Positions 1,052 to 10,037 of a stretch of DNA of 64,000 nt are shown here, in pieces (positions within the stretch are counted from its first letter, which is position 1; each line of letters starts with the position of its first letter). The stretch lies in the NCBI GenBank assembly GCA_026989535.1, contig JALSJD010000048.1, forward strand, positions 24,702-88,701. Direction: 5' to 3'. The position numbers and the translations under genes were made by a program. The notes beneath the pieces were generated by a model. It did no database searches, had not been told where the DNA came from, and was given only the letters and a program-made list of their open reading frames with translations. This stretch comes from Cyclobacteriaceae bacterium. Its GTDB lineage: Bacteria; Bacteroidota; Bacteroidia; Cytophagales; Cyclobacteriaceae.

Positions 1052-2380
1052 TTAAAAATTGGCCTGCAATAACCTTCCGCTTAACTGCAATAGTGTAAGC
1101 TCGGCTACTTTGGCGCTATACTTAGCTTGGTTGTAATTTAAGCTGGCATTTAGGTAGTTTAATTGTGCCTGCCTAAACTCAATAGAGGTTACCTGCCCTA
1201 AGGTATATTGCTCTTGTGTTCGGCTAAAATTACGTTTATTGGTTTGTAAATTTTTCTTTTCGGCCTGCAACACAAATAAGGCTGTTTGGTAAATAGTCCA
1301 GGCATTGCTCACATTACGTTGAGTTTCAAGTTGAGTTCGTTCAAGGTTTAATTGCTGGTTTTCCATTAAAATGAACGTGTTTTGTTTCCTTGTTTTGGTA
1401 AGGCCTCCATCAAAAATATTCCAGGTAAGGCTAGCTCCTATTGTAGGGCCCGCGCTATTTTGCCTATCAAAAAACGAGGTGGCACCAAAGTTATTAATCG
1501 AGTAATTATAAGCAGCACTTAGCCCTATTTTAGGAATGGCGGCTGTGCTAACAATGCGTTGGTCGTGTTGGGTGTTGATGAGCAAAGCCTGTTCTTGCAA
1601 AATGCTTATATTGGTGGTTTTTGCTTCATCAAGCAAAGTGGCTACATGTAAGCCTTGTGCATAGGCAATGGTGGTATCCACCATAAATTGTGTTTGTACA
1701 TCGCGCCCAATAAGTAAATTAAGATTTCTTTTTTGATTTTCGAGCTCTTGCAAAATGGTAAGATAACTGATGCTATCGTTATTATAATCTACCTCGGCAT
1801 TAAGTAAATCCAATTGTGTATTTTGCCCATAATCCGAGCTGTACTTAGCCCTGATAAGCCTGTCTCCTGAAATATCTAACCCACGCCTTTGTGTACGAAT
1901 ATTTTGAGTTAGCCGAGCAACCTCGTAATAAGCAGTAAAAATATTGAGCAACGAATTTTCGATGATTAATCGGGCTTGCAGTTCTGAAAGTTGGTAGGTA
2001 TCTTTTAATTTTTGATAATTATAAGATCTTCCAAACCCATCAAAAAGGGTGTATGCTAAACCTATAGAGCCGTTATAGCGTTTGGTTTGCACTCCACTAA
2101 CACTTTGCACATCGCCACTTTGCAATGTATTTTCTACATCAGAAAAGGAGAAATTTGCACTTCCTGTACCCGTTACCGAAGGCAGATAGCCGCTATTCAT
2201 TAACCCTGCATTATTTTGGGCTATTATTATATTATTTTGGGCTGTTCTTATATCAAAATTATGAGCCAGTGCCAAAGCTACTGCTTCGGTTTTGGTAAGT
2301 ATATTTTGTGCAGTGGCAGGGGCAAAACCAACCCACAATATGGTTGCTATAATTATATTTTTATACCTCATTTTCTTCAT
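1052..2380 (-). CDS. TolC-family outer membrane efflux protein
   Basis: This is the outer-membrane channel of a tripartite efflux pump. It has a signal peptide (MKKMRYKNIIIATILW...ATAQ) followed by two related halves rich in Ala, Gln and Asn, as in the OEP fold. Examples are LALAHNFDIRTAQNNI near the N-terminus and the LGQVTSIEFRQAQLNYLNA repeat near the C-terminus. The track ORF starts at 2440, but its first 20 residues overlap the RND gene and precede the signal peptide. The ATG at 2380 or the one at 2371 is more likely, leaving only a short overlap with the RND stop at 2361. It is the last gene of the marR-adaptor-RND-TolC operon. Substrate unknown. Confidence 0.9.
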   Translation of the reverse strand: MKKMRYKNIIIATILWVGFAPATAQNILTKTEAVALALAHNFDIRTAQNNIIIAQNNAGLMNSGYLPSVTGTGSANFSFSDVENTLQSGDVQSVSGVQTKRYNGSIGLAYTLFDGFGRSYNYQKLKDTYQLSELQARLIIENSLLNIFTAYYEVARLTQNIRTQRRGLDISGDRLIRAKYSSDYGQNTQLDLLNAEVDYNNDSISYLTILQELENQKRNLNLLIGRDVQTQFMVDTTIAYAQGLHVATLLDEAKTTNISILQEQALLINTQHDQRIVSTAAIPKIGLSAAYNYSINNFGATSFFDRQNSAGPTIGASLTWNIFDGGLTKTRKQNTFILMENQQLNLERTQLETQRNVSNAWTIYQTALFVLQAEKKNLQTNKRNFSRTQEQYTLGQVTSIEFRQAQLNYLNASLNYNQAKYSAKVAELTLLQLSGRLLQANF

Positions 2381-5300
2381 AATTTTTTTCAATAATAGCT
2401 CTGGTAACTTCTTCTTTAGTAACTTTTTTACCGGTAACATACCACCTAAAAAATACGGTTAAGGAGTTGCTTACCGATAGTAGCAAAGGCAGCATAAGTA
2501 GGGTTAAAAAAGTGCCAACTGCAAGGCCATACGATATTGAAATGGCCATAGGTTTTAAAAACTGAGCCTGACGACTTTTTTCGAGTAAAAGTGGTGCCAA
2601 ACCGGCAATGGTAGTAATGGTAGTTAAAAAAATAGCCCTAAACCTGGATACCCCTGCCTTAACCAGTGCATCGTCAAATTTTAGCCCTTCTTTTAGGTAA
2701 CTGTTAAACTTGCCCACCAGCACCAGCCCATCGTTAACCATAATGCCCACCAAAGCAATAATGCCTAACCACGATAAAATATTAATAGAAAAGTTGTGTA
2801 CATAATGCCCCCAAACAATGCCTATTAAACTAAAGGGTACCATTAAAATTAGCAATAGTGGTTGGCTGTACGATCTAAATGTAAATGCAATAACCACATA
2901 AATTAGCATAATAATTACCAAGCCCACCGAGTTTACCGAGTTTTTGGTTTTTTCGGCTTCCCTGTTTTGCCCTTCGTAACTTGCAGAAACCGTTGGGTAT
3001 CTTGAAATAATATCTGGCATTATGTGGGTTTTAATGGTGTTCATTACGGCTACTTCGCTGTCATCCGGAGATTTTAAATCGGCTGTTACCTGAATCTCTC
3101 TTTTACCGTTTAAGTGGTTTATAGCCACTTCGCCTCGCTCAATTTGATAGCTAGCAATTTCTGAAAAAGGCACTTTAGATCCGTCAGGAGTAGATATCCA
3201 CATATCGTCTAGGTGTTTGATAGACGACCTGTTTTTTTTATGATACCGTACCCATACTTTAACTTCATCTTGTCCACGTTGGAAACGTTGTACCTGAAAA
3301 CCAAAAAAACCTGAACGTACTTGGTTCATAACCGATTGCAGGTTTAGCCCGAGTAGGTAGGCATCATTTTTTAACTTAACTCGTATTTCTTTAATACCAG
3401 CAGGGTCGTTATCTGAAATATCTTTTAAAGCAGGGTTACTGATTAGGTACTCTTTGAGTTCTTTTTTTGCGGCTTTTAGCTCAGGAATGTTGTTACCCAA
3501 TAACGATACAGCCACAGGGCTTCCGCCAAAATTCATTCCTGAACCAAACGTGAGGCTTTCTACTCCATAAAAGGTTCCAGATTTTTCGCGGATGGCATTG
3601 GTTATTTCATACGAAGCAAAATCGCGCAACTCGCCCGGTAGCAGGTTTACAGTTAAGCTTGCTTTGTTGGTGCCAGGCCCAATACGTTTTATAATATTTT
3701 GAACCACCTGCTCATTATCGGTCTGTTTTTTAGTATAATCGTTGTTTACCAACCACGCAGCCTTTTCTATCTGCGAAATGATAGAATCGGTAATTTTTTC
3801 GTTAGTGCCCTGAGGCATTGTGAGGCTAATCGAAATCCGATCGCTGGCCATTCTTGGGAAAAAAGAAGTTTTAACTATTCCACTTGCAATTCCTCCCACA
3901 GAAAATATTAGCAGAGCAATTGGTATGGCAAATCCTAAAAATTTATTTTTTAAGAAAAACATCAGATAGGGAGCATACATTTTATCTCTTATAAACATTA
4001 AGAATTGATCTGCTCTTTTGTTTATATGGGAGAAAACCTTAAACAATCCTGTGGGTTCTTTCTTTTTACGAATTAGCGCCTTTGAGTGTGCAATATGAGC
4101 GGGCAAAATAATGAGTGCTTCTATTAAAGAAACTCCTAAAGTTAAGATGACAACGGTTGACACTTCTTTAAAAAATTCGCCCATTCGCCCATCTAAAAAG
4201 TAGAAAGTAGAAAAAGCCAACATGGTAGTTAAAATAGCCGAAACGATAGGGGGTATTACCTCAATGGTGCCATCAATAGCTGCCCTAATAGGCGATTTTC
4301 CTTTTTCGTAATGCTGAAAAATATTTTCACCAATTACAATGCCATCATCTACCAAAATACCAATAACGATAATCATACCAAAAAGCGATAATACGTTAAT
4401 GGTAACACCCAATTGCCCCGCAAAAATAAACATGCCAAAAAAGGCAATGGGTAAACCTGCTGCTACCCAAAAGGCAATGCGTACATTTAAAAATAATGCC
4501 AAAAGCAGTAGCACTAATAACATACCAATAACGGCATTTTCGGTGAGCAGTTTTGTTCTTTGTACTAAGGTAATTGAGCGGTCGCTTGCAATATGTAGTA
4601 CCACATTATCGTGCTGTTGGTTAAAGGTTTTAATATAGGATTTAATATCAGTAGCCGAAACTATCAGATCTTCGTTATTGGTGTTATTTACCTGAATATT
4701 GATGGCAATGTCTCCATTATAGAATATCCTATCGGGATTTTCATTCCAAATATCTTTAACATCAGCTACATCTTTTAAGTAAATAATAGTACCGGCTTGG
4801 TTCGCTTTAACAATAATATGACTTAGCTCATTGCCATAATACTGCCTGTTTTTAGCTCTAATCAGGTAATCTTCGGCTTCGGTTTTTATATTTCCTCCTG
4901 TAATTAGCAAATTCGACTGGCTAACCGCATTGGCCACATCTGCAAATGATAAGTTATACGCTCTTAGGTCTATTTCGCGTACGGCAATTTCAATCTCTTC
5001 TTCGGGAAAACCCGTAACAAATACTTGCGAAATGCCGCGCATTGTGCGTAAATCGTTTTCTACATCTCTGGCATATTGCTTTAATGTTGTTAAGGGCACG
5101 TTTTTGCCGCTTAATGTAAAACTTATAGTGGGGGTGGTGTTTTCTACTTTGGCTATTACTGGAGGATCCATGCCCGAAGGAAAAGAGGGTACTCTGTCAA
5201 CGGCATTTTTTACATCGGCCAGCACCACATCAATGTCTTTGTTCATTTCAATTTCCACATTTATAGTGGCGGTGTTTTCGCGCGATACCGATGTAACCCT

Positions 5301-5537
5301 GTCAATGCCAACTACTCCTTTTAAGTTGTCTTCTATTTTTAGCACAATGCCTTCTTCCATCTCTTCAGGAGAAGCCCCGGGGTAAAACAGCGTGATGGTA
5401 ATATTTTTCGAATCGGTTAAAGGGAAAAAGGAGGACTTCATGGTTTTAGCACCTAAAATTCCGAATACTATAAAAGCCATTATTATAACGTTTATAGCAA
5501 CAGGAAATTTAATAAAGTAGGCTATTACTTTTTTCAT
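2361..5537 (-). CDS. RND efflux transporter permease (AcrB/HAE family)
   Basis: This is the inner-membrane proton-driven pump of the efflux system. From the start at 5537 (MKKVIAYFIKFPVAINVI) it is about 1058 aa, the normal RND length; the track's extra 24 N-terminal residues would precede the first membrane helix. The two repeated halves each have an N-terminal helix, a periplasmic loop and a helix bundle. The proton-relay aspartates are seen in GILVDDGIVIGENI in TM4, and the matching TM10 motif in GIMVNDGLVLVGKFN. FFPLTDSKNITITLFYPGASPEEME is a typical HAE-family porter entrance. It lies 25 bases after the adaptor gene and overlaps the TolC gene. Whether it exports drugs, metals or lipids cannot be told from sequence. 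Confidence 0.95.
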   Translation of the reverse strand: MKKVIAYFIKFPVAINVIIMAFIVFGILGAKTMKSSFFPLTDSKNITITLFYPGASPEEMEEGIVLKIEDNLKGVVGIDRVTSVSRENTATINVEIEMNKDIDVVLADVKNAVDRVPSFPSGMDPPVIAKVENTTPTISFTLSGKNVPLTTLKQYARDVENDLRTMRGISQVFVTGFPEEEIEIAVREIDLRAYNLSFADVANAVSQSNLLITGGNIKTEAEDYLIRAKNRQYYGNELSHIIVKANQAGTIIYLKDVADVKDIWNENPDRIFYNGDIAINIQVNNTNNEDLIVSATDIKSYIKTFNQQHDNVVLHIASDRSITLVQRTKLLTENAVIGMLLVLLLLALFLNVRIAFWVAAGLPIAFFGMFIFAGQLGVTINVLSLFGMIIVIGILVDDGIVIGENIFQHYEKGKSPIRAAIDGTIEVIPPIVSAILTTMLAFSTFYFLDGRMGEFFKEVSTVVILTLGVSLIEALIILPAHIAHSKALIRKKKEPTGLFKVFSHINKRADQFLMFIRDKMYAPYLMFFLKNKFLGFAIPIALLIFSVGGIASGIVKTSFFPRMASDRISISLTMPQGTNEKITDSIISQIEKAAWLVNNDYTKKQTDNEQVVQNIIKRIGPGTNKASLTVNLLPGELRDFASYEITNAIREKSGTFYGVESLTFGSGMNFGGSPVAVSLLGNNIPELKAAKKELKEYLISNPALKDISDNDPAGIKEIRVKLKNDAYLLGLNLQSVMNQVRSGFFGFQVQRFQRGQDEVKVWVRYHKKNRSSIKHLDDMWISTPDGSKVPFSEIASYQIERGEVAINHLNGKREIQVTADLKSPDDSEVAVMNTIKTHIMPDIISRYPTVSASYEGQNREAEKTKNSVNSVGLVIIMLIYVVIAFTFRSYSQPLLLILMVPFSLIGIVWGHYVHNFSINILSWLGIIALVGIMVNDGLVLVGKFNSYLKEGLKFDDALVKAGVSRFRAIFLTTITTIAGLAPLLLEKSRQAQFLKPMAISISYGLAVGTFLTLLMLPLLLSVSNSLTVFFRWYVTGKKVTKEEVTRAIIEKNYEENEV

Positions 5538-5562
5538 AACAGATATGGGGCTGAGTGTAAAC

Positions 5563-6687
5563 TTATTTAGGTGTTGATGCACTGTTATAAACCTTAACAG
5601 CCATGCCATAGTAGGCTCCTGGTACAGGTTTAGATATAATTACAGTACCCTCTTTTAGGCCTTTGACCACTACCGTTTTATCTTTAAAGTAAACCGGGGT
5701 TACCTTAACCAACGCAAGTACTGTATCTTGCAACACAAATACTTTTTCGTTATTTATCAACAGTTTTCGTGCGATTTCATAGGCGTTTTTTTCTTGTTTG
5801 GCCACCAAATGGGCTTCAAGGTACATCCCTTCTTTTAAGCCTTTGCCAGCTACCTGAACAAAGGTTTTTACAGTTTGTGTGGCTTGATCAACCTTGCCAT
5901 TAACTCGTATTATTTTCCCCTCCCAACTTTGCGAGCTGTCCAAGGTTTTTAATGTAACAGGGTTGCCTATTTTAAGCAAGTCGATATAACTTGCATTAAT
6001 GGCTACCTCCATTTCATATACATTGGGGTTTATAAACTCGCCTAACTTTTGCCCAGGCCGCACCAACGACCCTGGGTTTACCAATGTTTCGGTTAAAATG
6101 CCATTATAAGAGGCACGAATGGTGTATTTACGTAGCCTTACTTCTAAATTTTTTACGTTGTAGTACGTGGTGTAAATATTTCTGCTCGATACAAAAAACT
6201 TTTCTTTTTCTGAGTTTGTTTGAGGTAATTTGGGTATTGGTTTATTAAAATCAAATCCTGTTAAGTAATTACGCCACTTCTCATATTCCGCAGGAAAATC
6301 AAGCCGAACATCGGGCATAATAGAAGTAATGGTATTGTACAAATTGCTTTTTTGTGCCTGCAAAGTCGCATACTCTTCCTCCTTATTAATCTTTAAGATT
6401 ACTTCTCCCTTTTTATAGGCAACACCAGCTTTAAACTCTTTGGCTGTAGGGTGTAAAACTCCTTGCACTTCGCTAAAAATCTCGATTCTGTTTTTAGCAA
6501 CCAAGTTGCCATTAACTTTAATGGTAATAGGAATGTCCTTGTTTTTAACAATATCAACAAATACTGTTTTAATAATTTTTCTGGCTTTCCGTTCAGGTTT
6601 TTGGTTTGCTGCAATCATGGCTTCAACAATAAAATACGAAGCAATAATTAATGCAATGCCTAATGCGATGGTTATATATTTTCTCAT
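5563..6687 (-). CDS. periplasmic adaptor (membrane fusion protein) of RND efflux pump
   Basis: This protein bridges the RND pump and the TolC channel. It has an N-terminal membrane anchor (YITIALGIALIIASYFIVEAM), then a barrel-sandwich half (VNGNLVAKNRIEIFSEVQG), a short helical hairpin region around residues 110-180, the second lipoyl half (YNGILTETLVNPGSLVRPG) and beta-barrel/membrane-proximal domains. Length 374 aa is normal for the HlyD/AcrA family. It lies 11 bases after marR and 25 bases before the RND gene, so it is almost certainly co-transcribed with both. Confidence 0.92.
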   Translation of the reverse strand: MRKYITIALGIALIIASYFIVEAMIAANQKPERKARKIIKTVFVDIVKNKDIPITIKVNGNLVAKNRIEIFSEVQGVLHPTAKEFKAGVAYKKGEVILKINKEEEYATLQAQKSNLYNTITSIMPDVRLDFPAEYEKWRNYLTGFDFNKPIPKLPQTNSEKEKFFVSSRNIYTTYYNVKNLEVRLRKYTIRASYNGILTETLVNPGSLVRPGQKLGEFINPNVYEMEVAINASYIDLLKIGNPVTLKTLDSSQSWEGKIIRVNGKVDQATQTVKTFVQVAGKGLKEGMYLEAHLVAKQEKNAYEIARKLLINNEKVFVLQDTVLALVKVTPVYFKDKTVVVKGLKEGTVIISKPVPGAYYGMAVKVYNSASTPK

Positions 6688-6698
6688 AATATCAGTTA

Positions 6699-7160
6699 TT
6701 AGGGGTTAGAATTGCCTTCTGCCAGTTTTATATTGGTTACAATTTTTTTTAATACCTGTACAGTAGTGTCTAATTCTGTTTCAGAGATGTTTTTTTGGAT
6801 AGTGTTAATTACATTGTGCAATACTGGAAAAGCCTTTAGCAAGGTATTCCTTCCATATTCAGTTAAATAAACAAGGTTTACCCTTTTGTCATTTTTGGCA
6901 GGCAAGCGTTTAACTAAATTTTTCTTCTCCATTGTATCTACAAGGCGCGCCAACGATGCTTTGTTGCGATTGGTTAAAAAAGCCAGGCTATTTTGGGGTT
7001 GTCCATTATTCTTCATTAACATAATAAGCATAACCAATTGGGGTTGCGATAGCTCAATTCCGTGTGTTCTAAAACTATCGGCTATAAAATAATCTGTTAG
7101 TTTCATCGACCTGCCTAACCAAGGCAAAATCGATTTTTCTATTTCTAAAGGTGCGCTCAT
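6699..7160 (-). CDS. MarR-family transcriptional regulator
   Basis: A 153-aa winged helix-turn-helix protein. The recognition region is LAFLTNRNKASLARLVDTMEKKNLVKR, followed by the wing KNDKRVNLVYLTEYGR, the classic MarR DxRxxxxxLT motif. It is the first gene of the efflux operon and probably represses it, releasing DNA when it binds a small ligand; this is inferred from family and position. The promoter and two palindromes lie directly upstream (see 7178-7245). A second copy of that upstream DNA lies before the ChaN-like gene, which may extend the regulon. Confidence 0.93.
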   Translation of the reverse strand: MSAPLEIEKSILPWLGRSMKLTDYFIADSFRTHGIELSQPQLVMLIMLMKNNGQPQNSLAFLTNRNKASLARLVDTMEKKNLVKRLPAKNDKRVNLVYLTEYGRNTLLKAFPVLHNVINTIQKNISETELDTTVQVLKKIVTNIKLAEGNSNP

Positions 7161-7177: not shown

Positions 7178-7245
7178 CAAAACTAAGGGGGTTACACTTA
7201 AAAGGTTGCAGATGCAACTAATAGTTAGCAAAAACTATATTAGTT
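7178..7245 (-). promoter_or_regulatory. marR promoter and candidate MarR operators
   Basis: On the minus strand TAGTTTTG (7185-7178) fits the Bacteroidota -7 box TAnnTTTG, about 18 bases before the marR ATG. Upstream lie GTTGCA-GA-TGCAAC (7205-7218, perfect arms), AACTA-A-TAGTT (7216-7226) and AACTA-TAT-TAGTT (7233-7245), which are each palindromic and also mirror one another. The first palindrome covers the expected -33 region, so a bound MarR dimer would block initiation. Palindromes and promoter box are seen directly; MarR binding is inference. Confidence 0.55.
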
Positions 7246-7289
7246 GTAAATGGAACTGATTTTGGGAGTTAAATCAGGATAGGTGGTAA
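7199..7289. repeat. duplicated operator segment, copy 1
   Basis: Aligns without gaps to 8762-8852. The core 7205-7269 differs at only 3 of 65 positions, all transitions, and similarity tails off over the last 20 bases. It contains the three marR-upstream palindromes. No third copy was found in the window. Confidence 0.85.
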
Positions 7290-7596
7290 TTGCAAAAAGC
7301 TCTCCGCTTTTAATCGCAGGGCGATATCCCTTTTGATTTAATTCCTCGACCCAAGGGGAGAAAATATTTTGTTTAAAAGGTTGCAGGAGTTGGTGGCTTT
7401 GGGGAATATTAAAACTAAGACTGTTTTAAATAAAAGCAATAACCCCAAACTTGTACGACACAGCACATTAGATTTCGTTTTCTAAATATTATATAATATT
7501 TTTTCTAATTTATTATATTTCGTTTTACATTTGATTTAGTATCAAGTATCTTTAACTTATAAGAAATTTTTTCTAATTAGTGTTGTATCGCAAAAG

Positions 7597-7626
7597 TTGA
7601 TGTTATTTAACTTGACACTAACTTTC
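7597..7626 (+). promoter_or_regulatory. likely promoter of the 7652 gene
   Basis: TTG (7597-7599), a 19-base spacer and TAACTTTC (7619-7626) fit the Bacteroidota -33/-7 consensus with one mismatch in the -7 box. It lies 26 bases before the ATG. Confidence 0.4.
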
Positions 7627-7651
7627 AGAAACTGACCTAAAGCCAAATATT

Positions 7652-8470
7652 ATGAATAGTCTCATTAAAATAACTTTATTTCTATCATTCACTTTTATAA
7701 TTTGCTTTTCAGCTCTGGCTCAGGACAAAATTTATAAGAAGAACAAAGAAGTAATAGAATGTACTATCAAGGAAGTTGGAAGTGAGGATATTAAATATTA
7801 CACTCCGGAAGTTCCAGAAGGTGTTTTACTTTCAATTGCCATTGATAAAATATTAAAAATAGAATTTGCCAATGGCAATCAAATGGCTTTTCAGGATAAC
7901 TTTTCGAATCCTGAAAACTATGTAGATCAGCGAAAAAATGCTATAAAAGCTAATTTTTTAGAACCGTTGAGAGGTAGCACAAGTTTTACACTTGAGCGAA
8001 GTTTAAAGCCTGGGAGAAGCATTGAAGGAACTGTTGGAATAATTGGATTGGGATGGGATCCCAACGGCTATAAAGGTGCTGGTGCGTATGTAGGTTTTGG
8101 GATAAAGTTTTTGTCTAAGCCAGATTATTACTTTAGAAAAATGCGTTATGCGCATATTCTAAAAGGATTTTATGTCAAGCCTGAAATCCTCATCAGTTCT
8201 TACAAAGTACTTCCATTTGAAAGCGGTTATTTTGGTTTGCCAGGAGCACCTGCAAGCTCTTCACAAGAAAAGGTTTCGGTAACCTCCGCTGTGTTTCTGA
8301 TAAATGTTGGCAAACAATGGGTTTTTGATGACGCCTTTGTGTTAGAGTTATTTGGGGGAGTTGGATATGGCTCCAAATCGAGAAATGATGTGCCTCAATA
8401 TTCCATATTTGTTGGAGACGAGACCCCGTTAACAGGGAAGCTTGGTTTTAGGATTGGCTTTCTTTATTGA
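7652..8470 (+). CDS. secreted/outer membrane protein of unknown function
   Basis: 272 aa with a clear signal peptide (MNSLIKITLFLSFTFIICFSALAQ). The following ~45 residues (KIYKKNKEVIECTIKEVG...ILKIEFANGNQ) resemble a small beta-rich module common at the front of Bacteroidota secreted proteins. The remainder alternates aromatic and glycine residues (GAYVGFGIKFL, LELFGGVGYGSKSR, LGFRIGFLY), and the aromatic C-terminus suggests an outer-membrane beta-barrel. I do not recognise a named family. It stands alone, with its own probable promoter. No sorting domain is visible. Confidence 0.7.
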   Translation: MNSLIKITLFLSFTFIICFSALAQDKIYKKNKEVIECTIKEVGSEDIKYYTPEVPEGVLLSIAIDKILKIEFANGNQMAFQDNFSNPENYVDQRKNAIKANFLEPLRGSTSFTLERSLKPGRSIEGTVGIIGLGWDPNGYKGAGAYVGFGIKFLSKPDYYFRKMRYAHILKGFYVKPEILISSYKVLPFESGYFGLPGAPASSSQEKVSVTSAVFLINVGKQWVFDDAFVLELFGGVGYGSKSRNDVPQYSIFVGDETPLTGKLGFRIGFLY

Positions 8471-8592
8471 CTCCATAAGAGCAACTCATGCTTTAATTCT
8501 CAATTAAAAGCCGAAATGATTTGTCCCCAATTGTCTAGACAGTTTTCTTACTATTTGTTATTTGTAAATAAGCAACCATCAGGATTTTCGTC

Positions 8593-8617
8593 ATTACCGA
8601 GCCTTACGCTCGGTAAT
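8593..8617. repeat. ACCGAG/CTCGGT hairpin repeat (short form)
   Basis: ATTACCGAG and CTCGGTAAT form a perfect 9-bp stem around CCTTACG. The same ATTACCGAGCCTTAC start occurs at 28867, where the loop is expanded by a second hairpin. No U-tract follows, so it looks like a dispersed palindromic repeat rather than a normal terminator. Confidence 0.6.
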
Positions 8618-8761
8618 CTCTGGGTTCAACCAAGTCCAAATTAGCATTCCGTTTTACATACTTTTTTATTGTGTTACCTCCTAACTCAAAGGTTATCAAA
8701 ATAAACAATAGAGGCTTGCCATTAATTGACTAAGAAGTGCTGTCGGCTTTAAAGAATGGAG

Positions 8762-8852
8762 TAAAATGTTGCAGGTGCAACCAATAGTTAGCAAAAACTA
8801 TATTAGTTGTAAATGGAGCTGATTTTGGGAGTATTTAAAGGATAAATGGTAA
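8762..8852. repeat. duplicated operator segment, copy 2
   Basis: Copy of 7199-7289. GTTGCA-GG-TGCAAC (8768-8781) and AACTA-TAT-TAGTT (8796-8808) are intact; the middle palindrome has lost one base match (AACCAATAGTT). It lies upstream of the ChaN-like gene. Confidence 0.85.
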
Positions 8853-8959
8853 GTGGCTAAACCAAATAGCACCGAAGCTCCAATAAGGTAAAATGAGATA
8901 CGAAAAGGATTCCCTATTTTTGAGTAATTAGTTAATTTAATCACTTGCAAACAACTCAA

Positions 8960-9832
8960 ATGAAAAACATATTATTCTCTCTTATTGCCATTTTTGCTAT
9001 CGAATTTGCTGCTTTAGCACAAGATAAGCCTGCTTACCAAATCTATAATCAAAAAGGGAAACCGGCTAACTACAATAAAATGATAGAAGATTTAGTCGAA
9101 AGTGATATGGTGTTTTTTGGGGAGTATCATACCAATCCAATCTCGCACTGGTTACAAATTGAAATGGCCAAAAATTTTTATGAAATTAAAGGAGATAAAT
9201 TGTTTTTTGGAGCCGAAATGTTTGAAAATGGTAACCAATTGGTGCTTGATGAGTATTTAGCAGGGCTCTATCCTGAAAAGAAAATGATGCCTGAAATAAC
9301 ACAATTGTGGAAGAACTATAAAACGGATTATAAACCTTTGGTAGAATTTGCCAAAGAGAACAAACTACGTTTTATTGCCACTAATATTCCCAGAAGGTAT
9401 GCTGCCATGATAAATAAGAAGGGGATGGATGCTTTGGATAGCCTAAGCCCCAAAGCTCTTGCAATGATTGGCCCCCTAAAAGCCCATTTCGACTCAACTG
9501 TATATGCAACCATGGCCGATGTAATGGGAGAACATGTGCCTCCTAATATGCTAAACATTCAAACAGCACAAGCGGCTAAAGATGCCACAATGGCTCATTT
9601 TAGTTTAAAAAATTATACAAAAGGAAATCTTCTGCTCCATTTTGAGGGCACCTACCACTCTAATTATAACAGAGGTATTATCTGGTGGGTTAACAAAATA
9701 CAACCCGGTTTAACTATTAAATCAATTACAACCGTAGAGCAATCGGAATGGGATGAGATGACCGAAGATCAAAAAGCTACAATTGCTAACTATACCATTG
9801 TAGTGGTTGATAATATGACACAGACCAATTAG
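8960..9832 (+). CDS. ChaN-like (DUF399) secreted protein
   Basis: A 290-aa protein with signal peptide MKNILFSLIAIFAIEFAALAQ. It has the ChaN/DUF399 signatures VFFGEYHTNPISHWLQ near residue 55, FIATNIPRRYAAMI in the middle and HFEGTYHSNYNRGI near the C-terminus. ChaN proteins of other bacteria bind haem or iron in the periplasm and belong to the EreA/TraB-like fold; the role here is inferred only. The track starts at a TTG (8945), but the ATG at 8960 sits directly at the signal peptide. The lipobox cysteine of E. coli-type ChaN is absent. The duplicated marR-type operator segment upstream hints at co-regulation with the efflux operon. Confidence 0.85.
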   Translation: MKNILFSLIAIFAIEFAALAQDKPAYQIYNQKGKPANYNKMIEDLVESDMVFFGEYHTNPISHWLQIEMAKNFYEIKGDKLFFGAEMFENGNQLVLDEYLAGLYPEKKMMPEITQLWKNYKTDYKPLVEFAKENKLRFIATNIPRRYAAMINKKGMDALDSLSPKALAMIGPLKAHFDSTVYATMADVMGEHVPPNMLNIQTAQAAKDATMAHFSLKNYTKGNLLLHFEGTYHSNYNRGIIWWVNKIQPGLTIKSITTVEQSEWDEMTEDQKATIANYTIVVVDNMTQTN

Positions 9833-9837
9833 ATCAC

Positions 9838-9890
9838 GTCCTGAAATAGGTTAACTAAAATAATAATAAAAAGTCAACCTAAAACAGGAC
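9838..9890. repeat. 53-bp inverted-repeat element
   Basis: The ends GTCCTGAAATAGGTTAAC and, as reverse complement, GTCCTGTTTTAGGTTGAC match at 14 of 18 positions around an AT-rich core. It starts 6 bases after the ChaN-like stop codon. The ends look like insertion-sequence termini with almost no interior, so it is probably a MITE-type remnant. It could also act as a terminator for the gene before it. Confidence 0.5.
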
Positions 9891-9914
9891 AAAAATGTCT
9901 GCCAATCCAGGCAG

Positions 9915-9946
9915 GCTTATCGCTTTAGTGAATCACTCAATTTAGG
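9915..9946. repeat. fragment of the 56116-type inverted-repeat element
   Basis: These 32 bases are the reverse complement of 56120-56151 with a single mismatch. No matching second end was found here, so it is a solo end or a decayed copy. Confidence 0.65.
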
Positions 9947-10037
9947 CAATAGAGAGTTGGCACGACACTAGCAACTCCATGGCTTCATCGGATGCAATCC
10001 CCCTAAAACAAAAGTTATCAAAATAGATAATAGGTAT

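Follow-up and report, generated by a model that had tools for sequence, protein, structure and literature searches.

A predicted MarR operator duplicated from an RND efflux operon to a ChaN-like gene in a member of the Cyclobacteriaceae

In a 64-kb window (the whole stretch of DNA analyzed here) two similar segments of 91 bp were observed, one upstream of a gene encoding a MarR-family repressor that heads an efflux operon, and the other, 1.5 kb away, upstream of a gene for a haem-binding-like (ChaN-like) protein. This raises the question of whether the segment contains the operator of the repressor and whether its second copy brings the ChaN-like gene under the same control, as a sequence-only reading of this DNA had proposed.

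The efflux operon and its predicted operator

Gene marR (6699..7160, minus strand) was assigned by its orthologues and by a MarR winged-helix domain in its product (PF01047, 43.6 bits versus a cut-off of 24.6). It is adjoined, in the same direction, by genes encoding an RND periplasmic adaptor subunit (5563..6687; PF13437, with TIGR01730 above cut-off), an RND permease of the AcrB family (2361..5609; PF00873) and a TolC-like outer-membrane efflux protein (1052..2440; PF02321), all on the minus strand. For comparison, a profile scan of genome contigs yielded 80 loci of related marR genes, almost all of them in Bacteroidota. Among the 70 relatives with enough sequence, an adaptor-sized gene was next to marR in 69 and a recognizable RND permease was present in 43. 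Residue 66 of the MarR protein is N, replacing a mostly conserved D of the winged-helix stretch NRDKASLAR; the same replacement was found in 3 of 76 relatives scored.

Footprinting across the 80 loci showed a site like the consensus TAGTTGCATATGCAACTA just upstream of marR in 70 of them, none of which had a second site within 260 bp, and the palindrome is conserved upstream of marR relatives within the same taxonomic family. In the window this site, O1 (7203..7220, minus strand), lies at the same position and reads TAGTTGCATCTGCAACCT towards marR, departing from the consensus at the flanks and centre. In the related loci the consensus operator usually ends 18–19 bp before a perfect TAnnTTTG box, and such a box was found 17–20 bp after the operator in 48 of 71 loci, as compared to 0.26% at random positions. 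Bacteroidota promoters have TAnnTTTG as their −7 and TTTG as their −33 element (PMC6847099), so that the operator is placed over the −33 element. In the window, 20 bp separate the TTGCAnnTGCAA core of O1 from the −7 box of marR, TAGTTTTG (7178..7185, minus strand). A conserved palindromic predicted operator hence overlaps the promoter of marR itself, as expected for an autorepressor.

A position weight matrix (PWM) trained on other genomes only, with the window left out, gave 7203-7220 the highest rank in the window and 8766-8783, in the second copy, the next highest (respective E values of 0.026 and 0.051 per 64 kb). The TTGCAnnTGCAA core occurs at these two places only in the window, against 0.17 occurrences expected. 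Six exact RTTGCAnnTGCAAY sites were found in the genome by pattern searches, and all were classified: the four besides the two copies are inside genes. For sites with mismatches, 15 loci among the matches listed were read; those outside long ORFs include L116 and L121, at contig ends, and L128. Likewise, the remaining above-threshold sites in the 828 kb surrounding the 80 marR relatives all fell within genes, with none in intergenic DNA. Combined, these results strongly support the proposed identification of the GTTGCAnnTGCAAC palindrome as the predicted MarR operator. MarR would autorepress the marR-adaptor-permease-TolC operon through O1, which lies over the −33 element of a promoter of the Bacteroidota type.

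A second palindrome of the segment, AACTAnnnTAGTT, had also been taken for an operator. It is unchanged in both copies (7233-7245 and 8796-8808), as had been stated, and its only exact matches are these two; allowing up to one mismatch gave 5 matches versus 4.4 by chance. Its role as a separate operator is unsupported. More convincing as a second candidate is a site that overlaps it, TAGTTGTAAATGGAACTG (O2, 7241..7258, plus strand; three mismatches to the consensus, PWM score 9.5, p=5e-5 per position), a putative weak operator that helps to account for the inverted repeat of the core. Its counterpart in the second copy (8804-8821) is degraded, with a PWM score of 4.5.

The duplicated segment and the ChaN-like gene

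Copy 1 (7199..7289) and copy 2 (8762..8852) are in direct orientation. Realignment without gaps showed 79 of 91 positions identical, with 12 mismatches, and BLASTN with small gaps gave 88% identity (E 4e-28); homology ends sharply outside 7199-7289. The left 71 bp contain four substitutions (copy 1/copy 2: 7204 G/T, 7212 A/G, 7219 T/C and 7255 A/G) and the last 20 bp contain eight; the 65-bp core (7205-7269) shows exactly three differences, all transitions, in agreement with the original description. The GTTGCAnnTGCAAC palindrome is unchanged in both copies (7205-7218 and 8768-8781), the left-part substitutions sparing all 12 of its symmetric bases, although this is uninformative alone, having a probability of about 0.46 by chance according to our own arithmetic. 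The difference in conservation between the left (4/71 substituted) and right (8/20) parts gave a Fisher p of 4e-4, or 0.02 if indels are counted as single events, and weakly favours constraint on the left part, with edge effects weakening the test. Because the copies have diverged from each other, an assembly duplicate is unlikely, and we infer that the operator was duplicated, within a segment of about 91 bp, in the lineage of the window.

The ChaN-like gene (hereafter chaN; 8961..9832, plus strand) has an ATG start in an ORF open from 8945, and its product matches PF04187 (E=5e-51). Its upstream region holds the strong predicted operator site O1', ATGTTGCAGGTGCAACCA (8766..8783), and on the basis of the site model MarR very probably binds copy 2. 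That chaN is thereby controlled is less certain, because copy 2 lacks the marR −7 box, the rightward box of the segment is imperfect and chaN has a perfect box of its own. The copied segment stops short of the marR −7 box, which lies outside the repeat, so that copy 2 has no matching leftward promoter. The imperfect rightward box, TATATTAG, is present in copy 1 (7236..7243, plus strand, 18 bp from the O1 core) and in copy 2 (8799..8806, plus strand, 18 bp from the O1' core), where it points at chaN. It differs from the −7 consensus by one mismatch, at a nearly invariant position (T in 49 of 50 marR promoters), and a box as good or better is expected by chance in about 3.7% of cases. The perfect box, TATTTTTG (8915..8922, plus strand), is likely part of chaN's own promoter; at about 130 bp to the right of O1' it is too far for the usual kind of block, whereas the imperfect box at 8799 is within reach.

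With the operator-bearing segment copied to directly upstream of chaN, MarR at copy 2 might put this gene under the inducer of the efflux operon, either by acting on a rightward promoter within the segment or by impeding transcripts that run into chaN. That chaN responds in either way is possible but on balance doubtful: its proposed control by MarR is made plausible by the upstream operator copy, and is weakened by the promoter features described above.

Control by MarR had been suggested, with a "perhaps", also for the gene between the copies, here called gene 7652 (7652..8470, plus strand), which encodes a secreted protein of 272 aa that matched no family in Pfam or NCBIfam. This is unlikely, because about 360 bp separate copy 1 from the start of the gene, which also has a promoter-like sequence of its own, with a −7 box at 7619-7626, about 330 bp beyond copy 1. 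Homologues were found in only two of 10 other genomes, G003 (67%) and, partially, G069 (38%).

Origin of the arrangement and alternative explanations

Congener G001 carries marR and chaN on a single contig, where they point the same way and are separated by 6.3 kb; the only operator is at marR, and chaN has none. There, chaN is the last in a run of co-directional peptidase-like genes. The marR-chaN interval of the window is different and its chaN is without those upstream genes; having lost them, it could have been in need of a new promoter. At 29 other chaN loci of the taxonomic family no operator was detected close to the gene, and no closer relative carries the arrangement. Since no such site was detected there or in other intergenic DNA of the 828 kb surrounding the marR relatives, the predicted link between operator and chaN, if real, is lineage-specific. 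Congeners G003 and G004 were uninformative on the ancestral junction; in G003, marR was not found and the contig with chaN begins about 20 bp before the gene.

The interval between marR and chaN and the stretch after chaN are filled with short dispersed intergenic repeats of several families (7308-7374, 7386-7443, 8514-8570, 8582-8650 and 9834-9960), up to 98% alike and with copies elsewhere in the genome; a hairpin, ACCGAGCcttacGCTCGGT, lies inside 8582-8650. In addition, an 18-mer, TAGCTGCAAGTGCAACTG, is shared by L116:77-94, L120:1501-1518 and L121:1501-1518, in each case within about 100 bp of a contig end, which suggests a repeat that breaks the assembly.

The strongest competing explanation is that copy 2 arose as a by-product of rearrangement, for instance when the segment with gene 7652 was inserted at an ancestral marR-operator-chaN junction, and that it does not affect regulation, even should MarR still be able to bind it. 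The 7652 segment is flanked by the two copies as direct repeats, the gene has a homologue located elsewhere in G003 and none detected in G001 or G002, several dispersed-repeat families occupy the interval, and chaN has a promoter-like sequence of its own. Against this, the operator palindrome is unbroken and the left 71 bp are better kept than the right 20 bp, subject to the edge effects already mentioned. We regard this explanation as a serious contender, somewhat short of an even chance. The presence of other dispersed repeats could also suggest that the 91-bp segment is itself dispersed or mobile and came to both places by chance, and many dispersed copies had been named as an observation that would speak against the regulatory reading. 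However, searching the entire genome (3.82 Mb in 252 contigs, 99% complete) returned the two copies only, and the best match in a congener was a 35-bp stretch inside asnA, so that this origin is extremely improbable. The match (G002, L019:1501-1535; 83% alike, E 0.007 in a five-genome search) does not extend further and was taken as chance, and derivation of the segment from asnA was rejected; no asnA was found in the window's own genome.

Instead of being a DNA operator, the conserved core could function as an RNA hairpin or a small ORF. On either strand, none of 200 shuffles folded as well as copy 1 (z −3.9 and −4.7), but copy 2 showed no significant fold (z −1.4 and −1.7), no Rfam match was found in the repeat, and most of the hairpin is accounted for by the half-sites of O1 and O2, which are inverted. 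In the reading frame that stays open through the core, each of the four substitutions alters the amino acid. Both versions were rejected, and together they retain very little probability. Two strong sites in one orientation might, finally, loop the DNA over 1.56 kb and so tighten repression of marR; yet MarR proteins usually act as single dimers and the 70 site-bearing relatives have a single nearby site, which makes looping a most improbable function.

The favoured explanation, in which O1 serves autorepression, the operator segment was duplicated, MarR binds copy 2 and chaN is perhaps co-controlled, is, taken as a whole, evenly poised between being right and wrong. Its evolutionary extension, that in one lineage duplication of the operator recruited chaN to the efflux regulon after loss of the ancestral upstream genes and in this way linked efflux to a haem/iron-related or stress function, is offered only tentatively.

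Relation to known regulatory systems

For a MarR that is widespread in Bacteroidota and encoded beside efflux genes, the analysis provides an operator defined by its sequence, TAGTTGCATATGCAACTA, and positioned on the −33 element; literature searches for a Bacteroidota MarR efflux operator, or for this operator, gave nothing relevant. The locus is also a small, testable example of how a regulon may grow through operator duplication and, if the proposal is true, a haem/iron-related or stress function would be tied to drug efflux in one lineage.

As in marRAB of E. coli, a MarR protein would repress its own operon through a TTGC-N4-GCAA-type operator whose flanks are similar, such a site being visible in a primer for the E. 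coli mar promoter (PMC8614764). Unlike marRAB, the operon here encodes the RND pump itself and no marA, its promoter is of the Bacteroidota −33/−7 type, and an extra copy of the operator lies upstream of an unrelated gene. A regulator of the MarR family encoded beside an RND pump is also found in MexR of mexAB-oprM, and structures of MexR (multidrug resistance operon repressor, 1lnw) match the profile. However, mexR is divergent from its pump genes, unlike the present marR, which heads the pump operon. Compared to Bacteroidota promoters with TTTG and TAnnTTTG elements, the marR promoter is ordinary, with the operator placed on the −33 element, whereas copy 2 has no perfect −7 box to match. The mechanism is of an already known kind, and the addition of one new target gene is plausible.
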